DNA from: Knoellia sinensis KCTC 19936
GTDB lineage: Bacteria > Actinomycetota > Actinomycetes > Actinomycetales > Dermatophilaceae
Length of the DNA stretch: 64,000 nucleotides
Assembly (NCBI RefSeq): GCF_000768705.1
Contig: NZ_AVPJ01000007.1
Location: 1 to 64,000 of the forward strand
Direction: 5' to 3'
Part shown: in pieces, positions 20,100-26,623 of the stretch
Layout of the letters: each line of letters opens with the position of its first letter
Numbering within the stretch: position 1 is the stretch's first letter
Notes under the pieces: model-generated
What the model was told of the DNA's origin: nothing
Databases searched by the model: none
The model's input: the letters and a program-made list of their open reading frames with translations, nothing else
Translations under genes and position numbers: made by a program

Positions 20100-20576
20100 T
20101 CAGACTGTCGAGTTGGATCGGCGCTTCGCGGCCCGGCTGAGCCACTCGGTCGCTGCGGCCACCAGCCCCAGCACCGCCAGTGCCACGAGCAGCCACCACC
20201 AGGAGCCTCCGGTCAGCGCCGCCCACAGGGCGGCCCCCACGGAGGTGTAGAGGGTGGCCCAGAGCAGGGAGCCGACGGCCGTCGCGGGCAGGTAGTGCGG
20301 AAGCGGCATCCGGAGGGCGCCGGCGGCAGCATTGATGAGGGTCTGGACCCCGACGGTGAGGAAACTGATGGCCACCACCGGGGCTCCCCAGCGATCCACG
20401 AAAGCCTCGGTCCGGTGGACCGCTGGACGGTCGAGGGTTGCGGCCAGCCGGGTGTGCCCACCCCCGGCGCGCAGCCCACGGCCGGCCCAGTAGGTCGCGT
20501 TCGAGCGCAGCATGGCGATGACCCAGAACGCCACGAAGACCGCCCACAAAGGCCAGTCGTCGATGAAGTCAGTCAC
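20100..20576 (-). CDS. VTT/DedA-type small membrane protein
   Basis: This 158-residue protein is shorter than typical DedA (about 200). The segment FWVIAMLRSNATYWAGRGLR followed by RWGAPVVAISFLTVGVQTLINAAAGALRMP matches the conserved core of the VTT (SNARE-associated/DedA) family, which handles lipid flipping and envelope homeostasis. Three to four hydrophobic segments are visible. The GTG start at 20576 is preceded 6 nt upstream by TAGAGT (20583-20588 on the complement), so the mRNA may be leaderless. Confidence 0.75.
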   Translation of the reverse strand: MTDFIDDWPLWAVFVAFWVIAMLRSNATYWAGRGLRAGGGHTRLAATLDRPAVHRTEAFVDRWGAPVVAISFLTVGVQTLINAAAGALRMPLPHYLPATAVGSLLWATLYTSVGAALWAALTGGSWWWLLVALAVLGLVAAATEWLSRAAKRRSNSTV

Positions 20577-20621: not shown

Positions 20622-23600
20622 CTACTTCGGGCACGTCTTCCGGTACGGGATTGACTCGCCGAAGATGCCCCGCCACTCGTCGGTCGTCAGGTTGCGACCC
20701 GCCCGGGCACAGGCAAACTCAACCCAGGTCCGCGGGTCAGTGTCCCAGCGCCGGACAGTGCCATCGGCCGCCGCCAGGAGCAGGGTCCGACTGTCCGGAA
20801 GGAAGACTGCCGACGCGGCCGTGCGTACTCGTGAGACGAGGATGGACTCGCTCTGGTCACCCGTCAGGCCGTCCCAGACCCGTACCCATCCGTCGTGTCC
20901 GGTCGTGACGATCCGGGCGCCGTCGGGCGAGAAGTACACCCGGCCGATCGAGTCCTGGTGCTCGGTCGTTGGCTCCCTCAGCCAGTCCCCGGTGGCGAGG
21001 TGGACGATGCCGAACGCCCCCTTTGTGCCGCCGATGGCGAGAAGACGCCCATCGGGGGAAACGTCGGCATGGCCAGCGTCGAAGCCGAGATCCTGCTGCC
21101 GGACGACACGACCGGCCTCGACGTCCACGAGCGCGAAGCCGTAGCTCTGATCGCGTTCGAGGAAGACCACCGCCCGCCCCGGTCCACCCCACACCACCTC
21201 GCGCAGGTCGCCGTCCACGTGGACACGGGGGCCGACGGGGACGAGCGTGTCGGCGTCCACTTCGTAGACCCACCCGGCACGTTCCCCGACGACGAGACCG
21301 CGCCCATCGGGCGTGTAGGCCAGGGCCTCGATGGCTCCGACTCCGACGTCCTTCTCCATGACGCGAGTACTGCTGCGCCAGTCCCAGACGCGAATCGTCC
21401 GGTCACCAGGCACCGCAAGCTGGTCGAAGTCAGGTGGTCGCCAGACACCCCAGTTCTGGTAGATGCCCTCAAGGGGCGGGAGCATCTTGCCGGCGACAAC
21501 GTCGAGGAGCTGAATGGTCTCCGCACGATCCCCTGATCCGGGAGTCGGGGAGGAGAACGCGACGACCTCTCCGTCGGGCGACGGAACGACAAGGTCCCCA
21601 TGGCTCTCCGGTCCCCCCGGAACGACCGGTTGGAGCAGGCGACGCTCGCCGCTGACGTCCCAGGCGCTCAGCCGGTCGAGAGTGACCGTGTAGAGCGTCG
21701 AGCCGTCCGGGCTGAACGCCATACTCGACAGGTCCTCCGAGAACCCTGAGATGCGCTCGCGCCCGGCCCCCTCGACGTCCCACACCGTGACGGTCAAGTC
21801 CTCGGCGCCACCGGCGAGCTTGGAGCCGTCCGGGGAAAAGGCCAGGCTGCGGGTGAAGTCGGTGGGGTTCGGCAGGCGCCTCGTGACCTTGAGGGACGAC
21901 GCATCGATGACGAGGACCTCGTCACCACCGAGGGCGAGGCTGCGGCCGTCGGGACTGATCGCCAAGGGCCCGTGGACCACGCCGTCCACGACGCCCTTCC
22001 CCAATGCGGCGGCGGTGGCCGTCCCGATCGTGCGTCCACTCCCCACGTCGAAAGCGAAGAGTGCCGGCGGCGACTCGACCCATGCGTAAAGGGTGGCGCC
22101 GTCGGGGCTCAACAGCCCTGCCCCGATCCGCTGCGGGGGGAAGGTTCGCACGAGCCGCGTTCCTTGCCACACGGACAGGCGACTCTCGTCCGTCGAGGCC
22201 TGCCAGCCCGCGGCCCCCAGAACCGTGCCGTCGCCACTCGCCGAGAGGCCCCAGAATCCATCAGCCGACATGCCTGTGAAGGGTTCGCGTGCCCTGGTGG
22301 CCAGATTCACGACGCCAAGGTCCCCGTCCCAGGTATTGATGGCCACCTCGTCACCCCGGCCGAGGAAGGCGACGCCGTTCGCAGGATGCGCGACGCGTGC
22401 GGTCTCGGCAAGGGAGGCAGGGTCCCGGATCGAGACGTGCGTTCCCTCCGCCAGAGCCAGAGAGCCGTCCGCCCCCACGGCGATCTCGAAGGCTTGCGGC
22501 ACGCGCACCGACGTGATCAGGGCGGGCCATCGCTGCAGGGCCGCCAGGAGTGCGCTCCGCGTCTCTGCACCGTCACTGAGGCCGATCGCCTCGACCCCGG
22601 CCAAGGCGGCAACGGCCGGGTCCTTGCCGTCGTGGGCGGCGGCAATCGTTCGGGCTGCGGCGGCTGCTCGGGCAGCCTCGTCCCGCTGGCGAACCCCGAA
22701 GGCCACGGTCACGGCGGCCACGATGGCGAGGGTCGTCAGCCCCGCGACGAGACCGCGCGTCGTCATGACATGCCTGCGCCGTCGGCGAGCAGCCGCGGTC
22801 TCCCGGGAGAGTTCCTCGGCGTCGCGGCGTTCCGAATCGGTCAGGAACACCTCTTCAACAGGAGTGAGCTTCGCCGCCGACCGCCGCCTCCACTCCAGGG
22901 CTCGGCTGAGCCGGACACCGCGATAGAGCTCGCTCTCGGGTCGGCCGAGGCTGTCCCAACTGTCGGCCGCGCCGGCGAGGTGACGCAGGACCCGCTGGCC
23001 CTCGATGTCGTCGTCGAGCCACTCCTTGAGGCGAGGCCAGGCCCGGACCAGGGATTCGTGGGCGACTGCGACGGCCCCGTCCGCAACCGTGACGAGCCGG
23101 GCCCGCACGAGCACCTCGACGAGTTCCTGCACCTCCCCCGCCCCGAGGACACGCGCCGGGATCCAGTTCCGGACCGGCTCTCCGTCGGGTGCCACGGACA
23201 CCAGGCGAAGCAGCAGGTCGTGCAGTGCCGCGCGTTGGTCCTCACCGAGACTTTCGTGGACGCGCTCTGCCGATCGCGCGACGGCTCCTCGGATGCCGCC
23301 GGACGCGCGGTATCCGTCGACGGTCAGGGTGCGACCCTCGCGGCCCTTCCAGGTCTGGTGGAGAGCATGCGCCATCATCGGCAGGCCCCCCGGCTCGTCG
23401 AACACGTCGCCCACGAGCACGTCGACGAGGCCTGGCTCGACCACGAGGGCCGCTTCTGCCGCCGGGCCCTCGATTGCGGCCCGGAGGGACGCCTCGTCCA
23501 TCGGGCCCAGCAGGAAGAGGCCGCGTTCGACGAGTCTGGCCAGGGCGGAAGGTTCGGCGACGTCGCCCACGTGGTCGGCGCGAATCGCGAGGACCAGGCT

Positions 23601-24737
23601 CCCCGTGTCGGCGAACTCGACCAGGCCCGAGTTGAAGGTGGCCTGCTCGCGGTCGTCGCTGCACGAAGCCACGACCTCCTCGAACTGGTCGACGACCAAC
23701 GTGCGTCCGGGTGGCCCGGCCAATACGGAGTGCAACGCCTCGACCGGCCTGTCGCGCACCGGCAGGAGTTCGACCCGACGCCCGTCACGACGCAACGAGG
23801 CGATGATGCCCGCTCGGACCAGGGAGGACTTGCCGCAACCAGACGGCCCCACGAGCACGAGCACACCGGACTCGTGGAGTCGGCGAAGACACTCGTCGAG
23901 CTCCTTCTCCCTCCCGAAGAAGTACTCCCCGTCGTCAACGTCAAAAGCTCGGAGACCCGGGTACGGGTTCTCGGGTCGGGGCTCCGGTAGGGCGACGGCT
24001 GCGACGAGCGAGGCATCCTGCCGCAGGATCGCGTCCTCCAGCTGGGCGAGCTCAGGACCAGGATCAAGCCCGAGTTCCTCCGCCACGTGACGGCGTGCGT
24101 CCCGGAGCGTCTGGAGGGCATCTCCCTGCTCCCCCGAGAGGTATTGGGCCACTGCCAGCAGGGCCCAGCGACGCTCTCGCAGCGGTTCCTGCGCCACCCT
24201 GGCCCGCGCCTCCGCGATCACCTCGGCATGCAGGCCCGCACGCAGGCTTGCATCGAGCACCGCTTCTTCTGCGTTTCGGCGCATCTCGTCGAGCCGTTCC
24301 GCCTCGAAGCGGCCGGGCTCCCAGTCCGCGAGTTCGGCCAGCGCTCGACCTCGCCACAGCCCCAGGGCCTCCCTCAGCACGTGGCGCGCTCGGTCAGCAT
24401 CACCGGCTGCCAAGAGGGAGTGACCACGGTCCACCAGGCGCACGAAGCGCACCGCGTCGACCGCATCACCGTGGGCGGTCAGGCGGTAGCCGTGGGACGT
24501 CGTCTCGATGGAGTCGGAACCGAGGAGCTTGCGGATGCGCAGGATGCTGCTCGGGATGAGTTTCTTCCACGACGCGGGAAGAACCTCGCCCCACAGGGCC
24601 TCGGCCAAGCTTTCCGCACTCAGCGCCTGACCGCCGGCAGCGACGAGTGCCTCGAGGACCACTTGGTCGCGCGGAGACAGTGCGTAGTGGTCATCGACGA
24701 GGAGCGGACCGAGCACGGCTATGCCCATGGTGCTCAA
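20622..24737 (-). CDS. Transmembrane BTAD-nSTAND1-WD40 transcriptional regulator (AfsR/SARP-like)
   Basis: This 1371-residue protein has, in order: an OmpR-type winged helix (about 1-95, LSPRDQVVLEALVAAGGQAL to LRIRKLLGSDSIETTSHGYR), a BTAD helical repeat (about 100-245), an nSTAND1 NTPase (about 255-650) opening NPYPGLRAFDVDDGEYFFGR with Walker A VGPSGCGKSS and Walker B TLVVDQFEEV, and one hydrophobic helix (GLVAGLTTLAIVAAVTVAFG, about 665) preceded by ARRRRRH. A WD40 propeller of about 600 residues with repeated FSPDG units closes the protein. The positive-inside rule puts the DNA-binding half in the cytoplasm and the propeller outside, so it reads as a one-component membrane sensor. It is divergent from a small exported-protein gene whose promoter contains SARP-like phased heptamers. 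Confidence 0.85.
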   Translation of the reverse strand: MSTMGIAVLGPLLVDDHYALSPRDQVVLEALVAAGGQALSAESLAEALWGEVLPASWKKLIPSSILRIRKLLGSDSIETTSHGYRLTAHGDAVDAVRFVRLVDRGHSLLAAGDADRARHVLREALGLWRGRALAELADWEPGRFEAERLDEMRRNAEEAVLDASLRAGLHAEVIAEARARVAQEPLRERRWALLAVAQYLSGEQGDALQTLRDARRHVAEELGLDPGPELAQLEDAILRQDASLVAAVALPEPRPENPYPGLRAFDVDDGEYFFGREKELDECLRRLHESGVLVLVGPSGCGKSSLVRAGIIASLRRDGRRVELLPVRDRPVEALHSVLAGPPGRTLVVDQFEEVVASCSDDREQATFNSGLVEFADTGSLVLAIRADHVGDVAEPSALARLVERGLFLLGPMDEASLRAAIEGPAAEAALVVEPGLVDVLVGDVFDEPGGLPMMAHALHQTWKGREGRTLTVDGYRASGGIRGAVARSAERVHESLGEDQRAALHDLLLRLVSVAPDGEPVRNWIPARVLGAGEVQELVEVLVRARLVTVADGAVAVAHESLVRAWPRLKEWLDDDIEGQRVLRHLAGAADSWDSLGRPESELYRGVRLSRALEWRRRSAAKLTPVEEVFLTDSERRDAEELSRETAAARRRRRHVMTTRGLVAGLTTLAIVAAVTVAFGVRQRDEAARAAAAARTIAAAHDGKDPAVAALAGVEAIGLSDGAETRSALLAALQRWPALITSVRVPQAFEIAVGADGSLALAEGTHVSIRDPASLAETARVAHPANGVAFLGRGDEVAINTWDGDLGVVNLATRAREPFTGMSADGFWGLSASGDGTVLGAAGWQASTDESRLSVWQGTRLVRTFPPQRIGAGLLSPDGATLYAWVESPPALFAFDVGSGRTIGTATAAALGKGVVDGVVHGPLAISPDGRSLALGGDEVLVIDASSLKVTRRLPNPTDFTRSLAFSPDGSKLAGGAEDLTVTVWDVEGAGRERISGFSEDLSSMAFSPDGSTLYTVTLDRLSAWDVSGERRLLQPVVPGGPESHGDLVVPSPDGEVVAFSSPTPGSGDRAETIQLLDVVAGKMLPPLEGIYQNWGVWRPPDFDQLAVPGDRTIRVWDWRSSTRVMEKDVGVGAIEALAYTPDGRGLVVGERAGWVYEVDADTLVPVGPRVHVDGDLREVVWGGPGRAVVFLERDQSYGFALVDVEAGRVVRQQDLGFDAGHADVSPDGRLLAIGGTKGAFGIVHLATGDWLREPTTEHQDSIGRVYFSPDGARIVTTGHDGWVRVWDGLTGDQSESILVSRVRTAASAVFLPDSRTLLLAAADGTVRRWDTDPRTWVEFACARAGRNLTTDEWRGIFGESIPYRKTCPK

Positions 24738-24769
24738 TGTCCGCCCCTCTCAGAACCCTGTCAATTGCC

Positions 24770-24829
24770 CCGATATCGAGCCGATATCGAGACAGCGAGG
24801 GCAGCCGACATCCGGCATCAGACCGGTAT
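24770..24829. promoter_or_regulatory. 11-bp-phased heptamer repeats between the regulator and small exported protein A
   Basis: CCGATAT occurs at 24770 and 24781, inside two perfect tandem copies of CCGATATCGAG. CCGGCAT (24812) and CCGGTAT (24823) form a second 11-bp-spaced pair, and CCGACAT is at 24805. Direct heptamers on an 11-bp pitch are the established recognition pattern of SARP/AfsR-type winged helices. The block lies in the 178-bp divergent region and could serve both genes. Confidence 0.6.
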
Positions 24830-24914
24830 CTGCCTGCACTCGAATGGTGCACAAGCCGCACCCGCCCGGGGCGGTTCCGGACCGACCAAGCCGGTCACCA
24901 GGAAGGAGCGCGTC

Positions 24915-25256
24915 ATGCGCACTGACAACCGCAGGACCACTCGCCGCGTCGCAGCGGCACTCGCCACGATGGCCCTCACCGGGCTCATCACCATGACCCC
25001 GGCCCACGCCGAGACCGACCTCAACGGCGACGGAACCATCTCCCCCGCCGAGATGAAGATCTGGGAGAACCAGCAGGGCACCACCACCCCGGTCGTGCCA
25101 GCACCTGCCCCAGGTACCGGCTCGCTGGTCCCCACCGACGACAACGCCATCGAGTACCTGCAGGTCGCGCTCGGCGTCGTGGGCGGCATGGTCGTGGTCG
25201 GCAGCGTCATCGCAGCCACCTCCGCCCGCCACCGTCACCAGGCCCACCCCGCATGA
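24915..25256 (+). CDS. Small exported protein A with an EF-hand loop and C-terminal membrane anchor
   Basis: This 113-residue protein has a Sec-type signal (MRTDNRRTTRR, then VAAALATMALTGLITMTPAHA, cleavage near AHA-ET). It continues with DLNGDGTISPAE, a textbook 12-residue EF-hand calcium loop, then a Pro/Thr/Gly linker and a hydrophobic segment YLQVALGVVGGMVVVGSVIA with the basic tail RHRHQAHPA. It would therefore be anchored in the membrane with the loop outside. GGAAGGAGCGCGTC precedes the ATG. It is a paralogue of the gene at 26222, including the 5' untranslated region and tail. No database family is recognised. Confidence 0.7.
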   Translation: MRTDNRRTTRRVAAALATMALTGLITMTPAHAETDLNGDGTISPAEMKIWENQQGTTTPVVPAPAPGTGSLVPTDDNAIEYLQVALGVVGGMVVVGSVIAATSARHRHQAHPA

Positions 25257-25279
25257 GCGCGCGTGAGGGCGCGGTCAGC

Positions 25280-25310
25280 ACGTTCCCCCGGAGACGCTCC
25301 GGGGGAACGT
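25280..25310. terminator. Strong hairpin after small exported protein A
   Basis: ACGTTCCCCCGGAG (25280-25293) and CTCCGGGGGAACGT (25297-25310) pair perfectly over 14 bp around ACG, 23 nt past the stop. The T tract is weak. Confidence 0.65.
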
Positions 25311-25346
25311 CGCGTTAATGGCCTCGCGCGTGTCGGTGCCCAGACC

Positions 25347-25352
25347 TAGGGT
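25347..25352 (+). promoter_or_regulatory. -10 box (TAGGGT) 7 nt before the alpha/beta hydrolase ATG
   Basis: The spacing implies a leaderless transcript for the gene at 25360. Confidence 0.4.
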
Positions 25353-25359
25353 CGAAAAC

Positions 25360-26076
25360 ATGGACACCACCACCTTGCCCAGCATCGTTCTCGTCCCCGG
25401 ACATTGGCTGAGCGCTTGGGCGTGGGCGGACGTCGAAGCCAGGCTCACCGACCTCGGGTTCACCGTCGACGCTGTCTCGCTCCCGGGCACGTCCCCCGGC
25501 GACGGCGACGGCGAAGACACGACGCTCGACGATCAGATCGATGCGCTGTCGGACGCTGTTGCCCGACAGCCCACTCCCCCGGTGCTCGTCGCGCACAGCG
25601 GCGCAGGTCGCGTCGCTACGGGTGTCAGCGACCGGGCGCCCGAGTCCGTGCGCCGCGTCGTCTACGTGGACAGCGGTCCCGCTGCCGACGGGTCGGCTTT
25701 CGACGAGTCCGCTGGGGACACCCCGGGCGAGTTACCGGAGTTCGCTGACCTCGAGGCCGGGGGCGCGAGCCTCGAGGGCATCAGCCCGGCTGCCCTCGAG
25801 GAGTTCCGGACACGGGCCGTGCCCGTGCCGCCGGGGGTTCTCATGGGAGTGCTTGAGCTGACCAACGAGGCCCGGCTCGACGTGCCGAGCACGATCATCG
25901 CCAGTTCGATCCCGTCGGAGGCCATGATGGGCCTCGCCCAGCAGGGGCACCCCATGTTCGCCGAAGTGGCCCGGTTCCGTGACCTCGGCCTGGTCGACCT
26001 CCCCACCGGCCACTGGCCGATGTGGAGCCGGCCGCAGGACCTCGCCGACGCGATCGCCGCCGCCGCGCAGGGTTGA
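25360..26076 (+). CDS. Alpha/beta hydrolase
   Basis: This 238-residue protein opens with SIVLVPGHWLSAWAWADVEA, the HGxW-like oxyanion region of small esterases related to plant salicylate/methyl-ester hydrolases. VLVAHSGAGRVATG holds the nucleophile (Ser in HSGAG), and the C-terminal DLPTGHWPMWSRPQDLADAI supplies the catalytic His. The substrate is unknown. It lies between the two paralogous small exported proteins but has its own -10 box, and the hairpin at 25280 separates it from the first. The region between the paralogues suggests that this gene was captured by their duplication or was present before it. Confidence 0.82.
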   Translation: MDTTTLPSIVLVPGHWLSAWAWADVEARLTDLGFTVDAVSLPGTSPGDGDGEDTTLDDQIDALSDAVARQPTPPVLVAHSGAGRVATGVSDRAPESVRRVVYVDSGPAADGSAFDESAGDTPGELPEFADLEAGGASLEGISPAALEEFRTRAVPVPPGVLMGVLELTNEARLDVPSTIIASSIPSEAMMGLAQQGHPMFAEVARFRDLGLVDLPTGHWPMWSRPQDLADAIAAAAQG

Positions 26077-26097
26077 CCCCGGCGTCACGGGCGCCTG

Positions 26098-26137
26098 CCG
26101 ATACCAGACGGATACCGGCAGAGCACCGCCCCGATAC
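26098..26137 (+). promoter_or_regulatory. Phased heptamer repeats upstream of small exported protein B
   Basis: CCGATAC (26098), CGGATAC (26109) and CCGATAC (26131) are spaced 11 and 22 bp apart, one and two helical turns. This is the same heptamer and pitch as at 24770, so the same regulator probably binds. The last copy ends about 85 bp before the ATG at 26222. Confidence 0.6.
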
Positions 26138-26221
26138 CCCTGAGGAGTCCAGTAGTGGGTGCCAGACCCGACCGGGTCCGGTCTCCGATCGGTCCGCCGG
26201 TCACCCACGAAAGGACGCGTC

Positions 26222-26623
26222 ATGCGCACCAGCACCACTACCCGGCGGGCAGCCGGGATCCTCGCCACCACCGCCGTTGCCGGACTGCTCACCGTGAGCC
26301 CGGCCTTCGCCAAGCCGGATTCTGGAGGGCCGATCCAGCCGGGCGGCACCACGTCGACTCTCTCACCGGCAGACGTCAAGGTCCACGACAGTTCGAGTGA
26401 ACGGAGGGTCTTCGAGAGCGAGATCATCCAGAAGAACCTCGACGACCTCCGCAAGGACAAGGGGTCGGCGCCGGCACCAGGCCCGGCCGCGATCACCCTC
26501 CCCGACAGCGGTGTCAACTACCTCCAAATCGGTCTCGGCGCCCTGGGCGGCATGGCAGCCGCCGGCGCCCTGGCAGCAGCAGTATCGGTCCGCCACCACC
26601 GCCACGCGGCCCACCCCGCGTGA
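26222..26623 (+). CDS. Small exported protein B, paralogue of protein A
   Basis: This 133-residue protein has the signal MRTSTTTRRAAGILATTAVA followed by GLLTVSPAFA. It has a hydrophilic middle without the EF-hand loop (TLSPADVKVHDSSSERRVFE), and a membrane segment YLQIGLGALGGMAAAGALAA with the tail RHHRHAAHPA. Start, signal, YLQxxLGxxGGM core and the RHxHxAHPA end match protein A (24915). The upstream CGCGTCATGCGCAC and GGTCACC segments are also shared, so promoter and gene were duplicated together. A 17-bp hairpin ends it. Confidence 0.7.
   Translation: MRTSTTTRRAAGILATTAVAGLLTVSPAFAKPDSGGPIQPGGTTSTLSPADVKVHDSSSERRVFESEIIQKNLDDLRKDKGSAPAPGPAAITLPDSGVNYLQIGLGALGGMAAAGALAAAVSVRHHRHAAHPA

Follow-up and report, generated by a model that had tools for sequence, protein, structure and literature searches.

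A candidate transmembrane SARP-STAND receptor in Knoellia sinensis, with a heptamer array beside genes of exported proteins

Work on SARP proteins has treated them as cytoplasmic regulators of antibiotic production, and STAND proteins are known mainly as switches inside the cell. In the window analysed here, 64,000 nucleotides (nt) of Knoellia sinensis KCTC 19936 (contig NZ_AVPJ01000007.1, positions 1 to 64,000; source genome 3.99 Mb in 61 contigs), a single protein, P0001, combines a SARP DNA-binding half, an nSTAND1 NTPase, one transmembrane helix and a predicted double beta-propeller. It is probably a one-component receptor that spans the membrane and controls genes of exported proteins as well as its own gene. 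This proposal draws on features read from sequence: the architecture, the topology signals, the position of a heptamer array and its rarity in genomes, the exported neighbour, and the covariation of a protein residue with the type of heptamer. The regulator is laid out as follows.

20622..24728, minus strand: regulator gene P0001, 1368 residues, ATG start
24459..24728, minus strand: OmpR-type winged helix, about residues 1-90, with a Trans_reg_C and an AfsR match
24024..24461, minus strand: BTAD domain of P0001 (118 bits)
22935..23966, minus strand: nSTAND1 NTPase of P0001, Walker A GPSGCGKSS and VVDQFEE (336 bits, cut-off 27.1)
22692..22748, minus strand: transmembrane helix of P0001, residues 661-679, with RRRRR shortly N-terminal
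20625..22676, minus strand: predicted external part, with a helical neck, two beta-propellers and a C-terminal helical cap holding Cys1340 and Cys1366

The BTAD domain, placed after an OmpR-type winged helix, argues for the descent of the DNA-binding half from SARPs, even though Trans_reg_C scores 24.0 bits, slightly below its Pfam cut-off of 26.2; the AfsR structure 8hvr matches residues 17-241 (E 1.5e-28). The P-loop-bearing nSTAND1 domain makes P0001 a STAND protein as well, and its NTPase residues G299, K300, S301, S302, D347, Q348 and E350 do not vary in nine of nine relatives. Further on, Pfam families of WD40 and other propellers match the C-terminal part. An earlier, sequence-only reading had described a fused regulator of 1371 residues starting at TTG 24737. 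The large fusion is confirmed, but ATG 24728 is the better start, because it lies 31 nt downstream of a TTGAC element resembling a -35 box. The chain of winged helix, BTAD, nSTAND1 and single transmembrane helix given by that reading is likewise borne out, while its one propeller is now modelled as two, preceded by a neck.

Topology was considered in 65 full-length relatives (closed, starting near residue 1, at least 1150 residues; six shorter ones were dropped). The strongest hydrophobic segment begins at residues 642-677 in every one of them, with a mean Kyte-Doolittle value of 2.48 (range 2.09-2.88) against 1.54 for the next best segment (never above 1.91). Arginine and lysine number 5.7 on average before the segment and 2.5 after it, a strong positive-inside signal, as had been proposed. 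An even number of cysteines, expected from disulfide bonding outside the cell, follows the helix in 63 of the 65 (2, 4, 6, 8 or 10; the exceptions have 3 and 5, one protein each) but precedes it in only 32; relatedness inflates such a count, and the cytoplasmic halves of these 65 proteins serve as its control. Both C-terminal cysteines, Cys1340 and Cys1366 in P0001, are kept in 29 of 29 aligned ectodomains. The propellers are therefore predicted to be external and disulfide-bonded, in agreement with the earlier placement, and the signals describe a ToxR-like layout with the DNA-binding domain inside, one transmembrane helix and the sensor outside. AlphaFold models the external part (pLDDT 91.3, pTM 0.89) as a helical neck followed by two propellers. 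Most structures retrieved with this model cover no more than its residues 52-344, and the second propeller is supported by the model itself, by full-length double-propeller matches (TM-scores about 0.35-0.41) and by Apaf-1. Among ten more distant ectodomains, eight match propeller families at E<=0.001, some weakly, and those of L043 and L104 have no propeller match at that threshold.

Between the regulator gene and its divergent neighbour, and again further downstream, lie the sites at which such a regulator would act.

24736..24741, minus strand: putative -10 of the regulator promoter, GACATT, assigned by eye, with the start codon near +1 (leaderless)
24759..24764, minus strand: putative -35 of the regulator promoter, TTGACA (TTGAC in relatives)
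24770..24787, plus strand: heptamer pair CCGATAT, at 24770 and 24781
24823..24829, plus strand: weak further heptamer CCGGTAT, which recurs in the Knoellia aerolata locus (G001)
26098..26137, plus strand: heptamer triple CCGATAC, CGGATAC, CCGATAC at 26098, 26109 and 26131 (0, 11, 33)

Seven heptamers sharing CCGATAY had been listed. Those at 24770, 24781, 26098 and 26131 are exact and that at 26109 is good, but the remaining two are weak: 24823 has one mismatch, and 24812 (CCGGCAT) was rejected, having two mismatches and standing 31 rather than 33 nt from 24781. GATAYN6GATAYC is found three times in the source genome, twice in the promoters of the exported proteins P0002 and P0003, and its reversed control nowhere; the array is beyond chance there. 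The third occurrence, on contig C6, is 81 nt 5' of the start of a 412-residue protein that carries a signal peptide and has no Pfam match in its first 90 residues. The local regulon of two genes that had been proposed is consequently too narrow.

Among relatives, the loci of the best 80 of 173 were scanned. The set of 80 upstream regions derives from 115 matched frames, after removal of 28 lacking an N-terminus or short and of seven duplicates; it retains tandem copies, some incomplete proteins and a distantly related SARP (L125). Pairs of GATAY up to 40 nt apart are spaced by 11 (48 pairs), 19 (2), 21 (15), 22 (16), 30 (2), 32 (16) and 33 nt (15). GATAY-N6-GATAY, with its 11-bp pitch, stands upstream of 47 of the 80 regulators and in none of 200 shuffles (a repeat of the shuffling gave 0.015 per 80); its density is 3.0/kb in these upstream regions versus 0.029/kb over the L052-L128 loci, a background that covers both strands and the upstream regions themselves. 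When variants are admitted (7 CATAC, 3 GACAC, 10 mixed), arrays are found in 67 of the 80 regions, with shuffles averaging about 0.3 per 80; the reversed control is worthless for CATAC, which is the same read backwards. The sequence-only reading had staked itself on heptamers being present next to orthologues, and on this point it holds. Heptameric direct repeats at target promoters, as SARPs have, are present at the level of sequence.

In genomes as a whole the array is scarce. In 11 other regulator-bearing genomes the strict form occurs at 18 sites (reversed control 0): by their coordinates 14 coincide with regulators already listed, one is at a second regulator, of which L062 contains the C-terminal part and which has an exported gene divergent from it, one is at a lone small exported gene, and two appear intragenic. 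Twelve relatives of the window hold 16 sites, with one match of the reversed control in all. Seven of the 16 are at regulators already listed; of the other nine, four precede exported genes (G004 C26, G006 C32, G027 C22:345317 and G027 C42) and one is at the broken regulator of G006 C3 described below. Exact arrays at G006 C31, at G027 C11, C22:269872 and C33, and at L173 and L175 were set aside as probable chance. A secreted family, with NVVFRDHFTF in two members and a similar C-terminal end in the third, was also seen after an array away from any regulator (L149, L152, L155).

In the promoters, TTGAC lies 29-32 nt 5' of the regulator start in 72 of the 80 regions, with a -10 resembling GACAgT or GACATT (spacing in the window judged by eye), so that the start codon of the regulator should be near +1. 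Several Agromyces partner genes show, by eye, no ribosome site, and the distance from the first nucleotide of the third heptamer to the gene start is about 28-29 nt, which would put this heptamer near the -35 region; in its accessible part, a review of SARPs also places a target-promoter heptamer there (PMC10972967).

Within the aligned sequences, one residue of the DNA-binding domain covaries with the heptamer. Alignment column 65 (residue 60 of P0001), which we take from OmpR anatomy to lie in the DNA-reading helix, is alanine in all eight regulators that have two or more CATACC heptamers, and never alanine in the 47 GATAY regulators (G 36, S 5, I 4, N 2). Alanine is found there in ten of the 80: the eight just named, L102, which has one CATACC, and L125, the distant SARP, which has no array; L054 and L116, each with one CATACC, carry glycine. 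This is not descent alone, because both kinds co-occur in each of three Agromyces genomes (L105; L106/L107; L110).

The products of the genes that follow the array, and the gene between them, are these.

24915..25256, plus strand: exported protein P0002, 113 residues, with a signal peptide, a DLNGDGTIS loop, a transmembrane segment near the C-terminus and an HRHQAHPA tail
26222..26623, plus strand: exported protein P0003, 133 residues, with LPDSG, then a transmembrane segment and RHHRHAAHPA
25318..26076, plus strand: alpha/beta hydrolase between the P0002 and P0003 genes

P0002 is divergent from the regulator gene and P0003 lies about 1.3 kb further; the two proteins are homologous (38% over 136 columns). 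The hydrolase gives no sign of membership in the system. Sortase anchoring is not supported: the LPDSG of P0003 gives Gram_pos_anchor 15.9 bits, under the cut-off of 20, so that an LPXTG motif with transmembrane segment and positive tail is not found at the Pfam threshold, and P0002 has no match. The EF-hand match of the DLNGDGTIS loop is likewise sub-threshold. Across relatives, a divergent gene could be called by a fixed rule in 52 of the 80 regions, and in 47 of these 52 its product bears a signal peptide or a lipobox and counts as exported; the background is 201 in 1000 random calls, or 156 in 958 for frames of at least 250 residues. Exported neighbours, as first noticed in the window, are thus recurrent. 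Their role as the sole output of the regulator is less secure, since the data also fit a partner of the sensor. The partners fall into classes that look unrelated: small proteins with a C-terminal transmembrane segment and often an AHPA tail, lipoproteins, and small secreted proteins.

There are also several remnants. In the source genome a paralogue of the regulator (L044, G000:C55:31877-35753) misses its first 294 residues; next to the break is the sequence for the mature portion of an exported AHPA-type protein, and another AHPA-type gene follows, which looks like a deletion having taken out the promoter and the SARP half. In a genome of the same genus (G006:C3 near 33990, L150) a heptamer pair is kept, flanked on one side by a copy of the regulator that is broken and on the other by a partner gene. 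At G006:C32:194877-195026 (L048) a P0003-like protein is represented only by its C-terminal third, adjoining a VTT-like gene that resembles the one at positions 20100-20576 of the window; the regulator and P0002 seem absent there.

The receptor that we propose would work as follows. Its SARP half and nSTAND1 domain would reside in the cytoplasm, and the transmembrane helix would carry the disulfide-capped double propeller outside. A ligand, or a state of the envelope, felt by the propellers would shift the state of the NTPase, in the manner of a STAND switch, and through this change several copies may come to dock their SARP domains on the 11-bp array between the two divergent genes. The bound receptor would switch on the gene of the exported protein, in the direction in which the heptamers read, and would also tune the regulator's own leaderless promoter, the TTGAC -35 of which abuts the array. 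Binding, activation, NTP switching and the signal are all inferred.

By analogy, the layout would be ToxR-like, the domain order Apaf-1-like and the action on DNA AfsR-like. ToxR, CadC and TcpP have, in a single chain as in P0001, a winged helix inside, one transmembrane helix and a sensor outside; unlike P0001 they are not known to have an NTPase switch or a BTAD, and their sensors are different. The likeness is one of layout. Apaf-1 and STAND receptors of the NLR type share the order NTPase, helical neck and double propeller (3shf, 3sfz), with a different relative orientation of the propellers in Apaf-1 and in the model (rmsd 11.8). Apaf-1 is soluble and signals by its CARD, whereas P0001 would signal across a membrane to DNA. 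AfsR has a STAND-type ATPase, as P0001 does, and is cytoplasmic with a TPR sensor; P0001 has a transmembrane helix and a predicted outside double propeller instead. AfsR and other large SARPs are otherwise alike in their N-terminal winged helix-BTAD, which AfsR chains matched, and, in the accessible part of the review, in their direct-repeat operators (PMC10972967). SARP-LAL regulators of the PimR type also join a SARP to a large ATPase, according to the accessible part of PMC3367932, but their C-terminal half is LuxR- or guanylate-cyclase-like where P0001 has nSTAND1, transmembrane helix and propellers; their operator has three heptamers with four-nucleotide spacers (PMC10972967, same part). 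PkwA of Thermomonospora curvata (5yzv) differs in being named a serine/threonine kinase. L127, from Streptomyces sp. NBC_01016, resembles P0001 in its nSTAND1 (308 bits) and WD40 repeats; it differs in that the match to P0001 starts at residue 251 and that its hydrophobic peak precedes the NTPase, and no SARP family is among the 25 listed of its 48 families. A literature search, with subscription papers mostly outside its reach and with papers judged largely by title and opening of the abstract, found no description of a SARP-nSTAND1-transmembrane-propeller protein, and the accessible part of PMC10907252 has no mention of SARP or BTAD.

A number of observations weigh against this proposal. The relatives share descent, so that counts overstate support, and the 11 genomes were selected for holding the regulator. 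Transmembrane and signal-peptide calls come from home-made hydropathy rules, not from SignalP or TMHMM. Even with variants, 13 of the 80 upstream regions have no array. Five of the 52 divergent neighbours fail the export rule, including those of L094 (likely a missed signal peptide), L091 (a membrane anchor) and L125; in the 28 regions without a callable divergent gene, 16 have an exported one by eye when the ribosome-site rule is lifted, with start codons picked by eye, and the rest do not. Five further regulators, at most four of which are of lower similarity, have no strict GATAY pair; a variant pair on the 11-bp pitch (GTTAC types) is present in three and absent from two; L179 has a lipoprotein as neighbour, those of L176 and L178 have a hydrophobic N-terminal part, and L177 and L180 have no exported neighbour. 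Finally, the source genome has four other BTAD proteins (five matches counting P0001), which could bind the array too.

Whether the exported protein is output alone or also a ligand is the main question between readings, and the data allow both. That it is a ligand or membrane partner of the propellers, in an autocrine or kin-recognition loop of self-sensing, is a possibility that we take seriously without favouring it. The ectodomain diverges faster than the cytoplasmic part (mean identity 32% vs 56% in 1179 pairs, restricted to ectodomain alignments longer than 400 residues and so excluding the more remote pairs), which would also fit foreign ligands. The partners, membrane-anchored, lipoprotein or small secreted, look unrelated, and several WDR5-peptide complexes are, by title, among the structures matching the propellers. 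At p<=0.01, 14 of 62 partners carry a short motif more than once, compared with one of 62 in the control (six of 68 were dropped, five being longer than 260 residues and one having fewer than 25 residues past position 28); however, P0002 has no duplicated motif (p 0.45), nor do 48 of the 62 at that threshold. Over 54 pairs, the partial Mantel correlation of partner with ectodomain given the cytoplasmic part is 0.18 (p 0.01), and that of partner with cytoplasmic part given the ectodomain just 0.06 (p 0.17); the former is weak, the test is liberal on related sequences, and partners called by eye are included in both sets (62 and 54). Near-identical short motifs, two or three to a protein and differing between genera, were noticed in the partners of L043, L053, L060, L066, L079, L100, L102, L105, L107, L110 and L113.

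P0001 might otherwise be an NLR-like protein of defence or conflict, its SARP part firing a response to foreign molecules with the exported proteins as effectors. The nSTAND1 domain and the Apaf-1-like domain order would suit this, as would the patchy spread, a close relative (E<=1e-150) being present in 18 of 186 genomes of the taxonomic family, the source genome included, and in 8 of 53 genera, with five of nine same-genus genomes lacking one. Regulator loci occur in Knoellia aerolata and K. flava, and span Nocardioides, Kribbella, Agromyces, Ornithinimicrobium, Arthrobacter, Nitriliruptorales and one Chloroflexota metagenome-assembled genome; tandem regulators, two or more, are found at L074, L105-L108 and L110-L113, several with their own arrays, which fits defence too. 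We nevertheless consider this unlikely: no PADLOC model of a known anti-phage system covers P0001, which has only a 24-residue P-loop match to mad3 (residues 287-310, E 0.00065), and the array is bound up with exported genes. It is less likely still that the heptamers are solely an autoregulatory operator and the divergent exported gene a bystander. The array does abut the conserved -35 of the regulator, but arrays with no adjoining regulator precede exported genes at seven sites (P0003, own C6, G004 C26, G006 C32, G027 C22:345317, G027 C42, L158), and there the heptamers point at the exported gene; on the opposite side, the scan covered long open frames only. Least probable is an ordinary large SARP with a cytoplasmic propeller and a buried helix, since the hydropathy gap, the charge bias and the cysteine parity oppose it, though the words 'transmembrane' and 'membrane' are absent from the accessible part of the SARP review (PMC10972967).

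Beyond the receptor proposed here one may, quite speculatively, imagine a widespread and diversifying actinobacterial family of receptors and ligands, in which an Apaf-1-like receptor placed across the membrane reads its own divergently encoded exported protein and answers at the heptamer array. If this were true, it would provide a self-tuned signal of identity or density without kinases or diffusible second messengers, and the two or three motif copies in the partners of some genera might correspond to one per propeller. As the array is rare in genomes, regulons can be proposed from sequence. The arrangement is found across many actinobacteria, and its sensors and partners change fast; this suggests a kind of bacterial receptor that has hardly been studied, and the family would add a route of envelope signalling beside two-component and anti-sigma systems.
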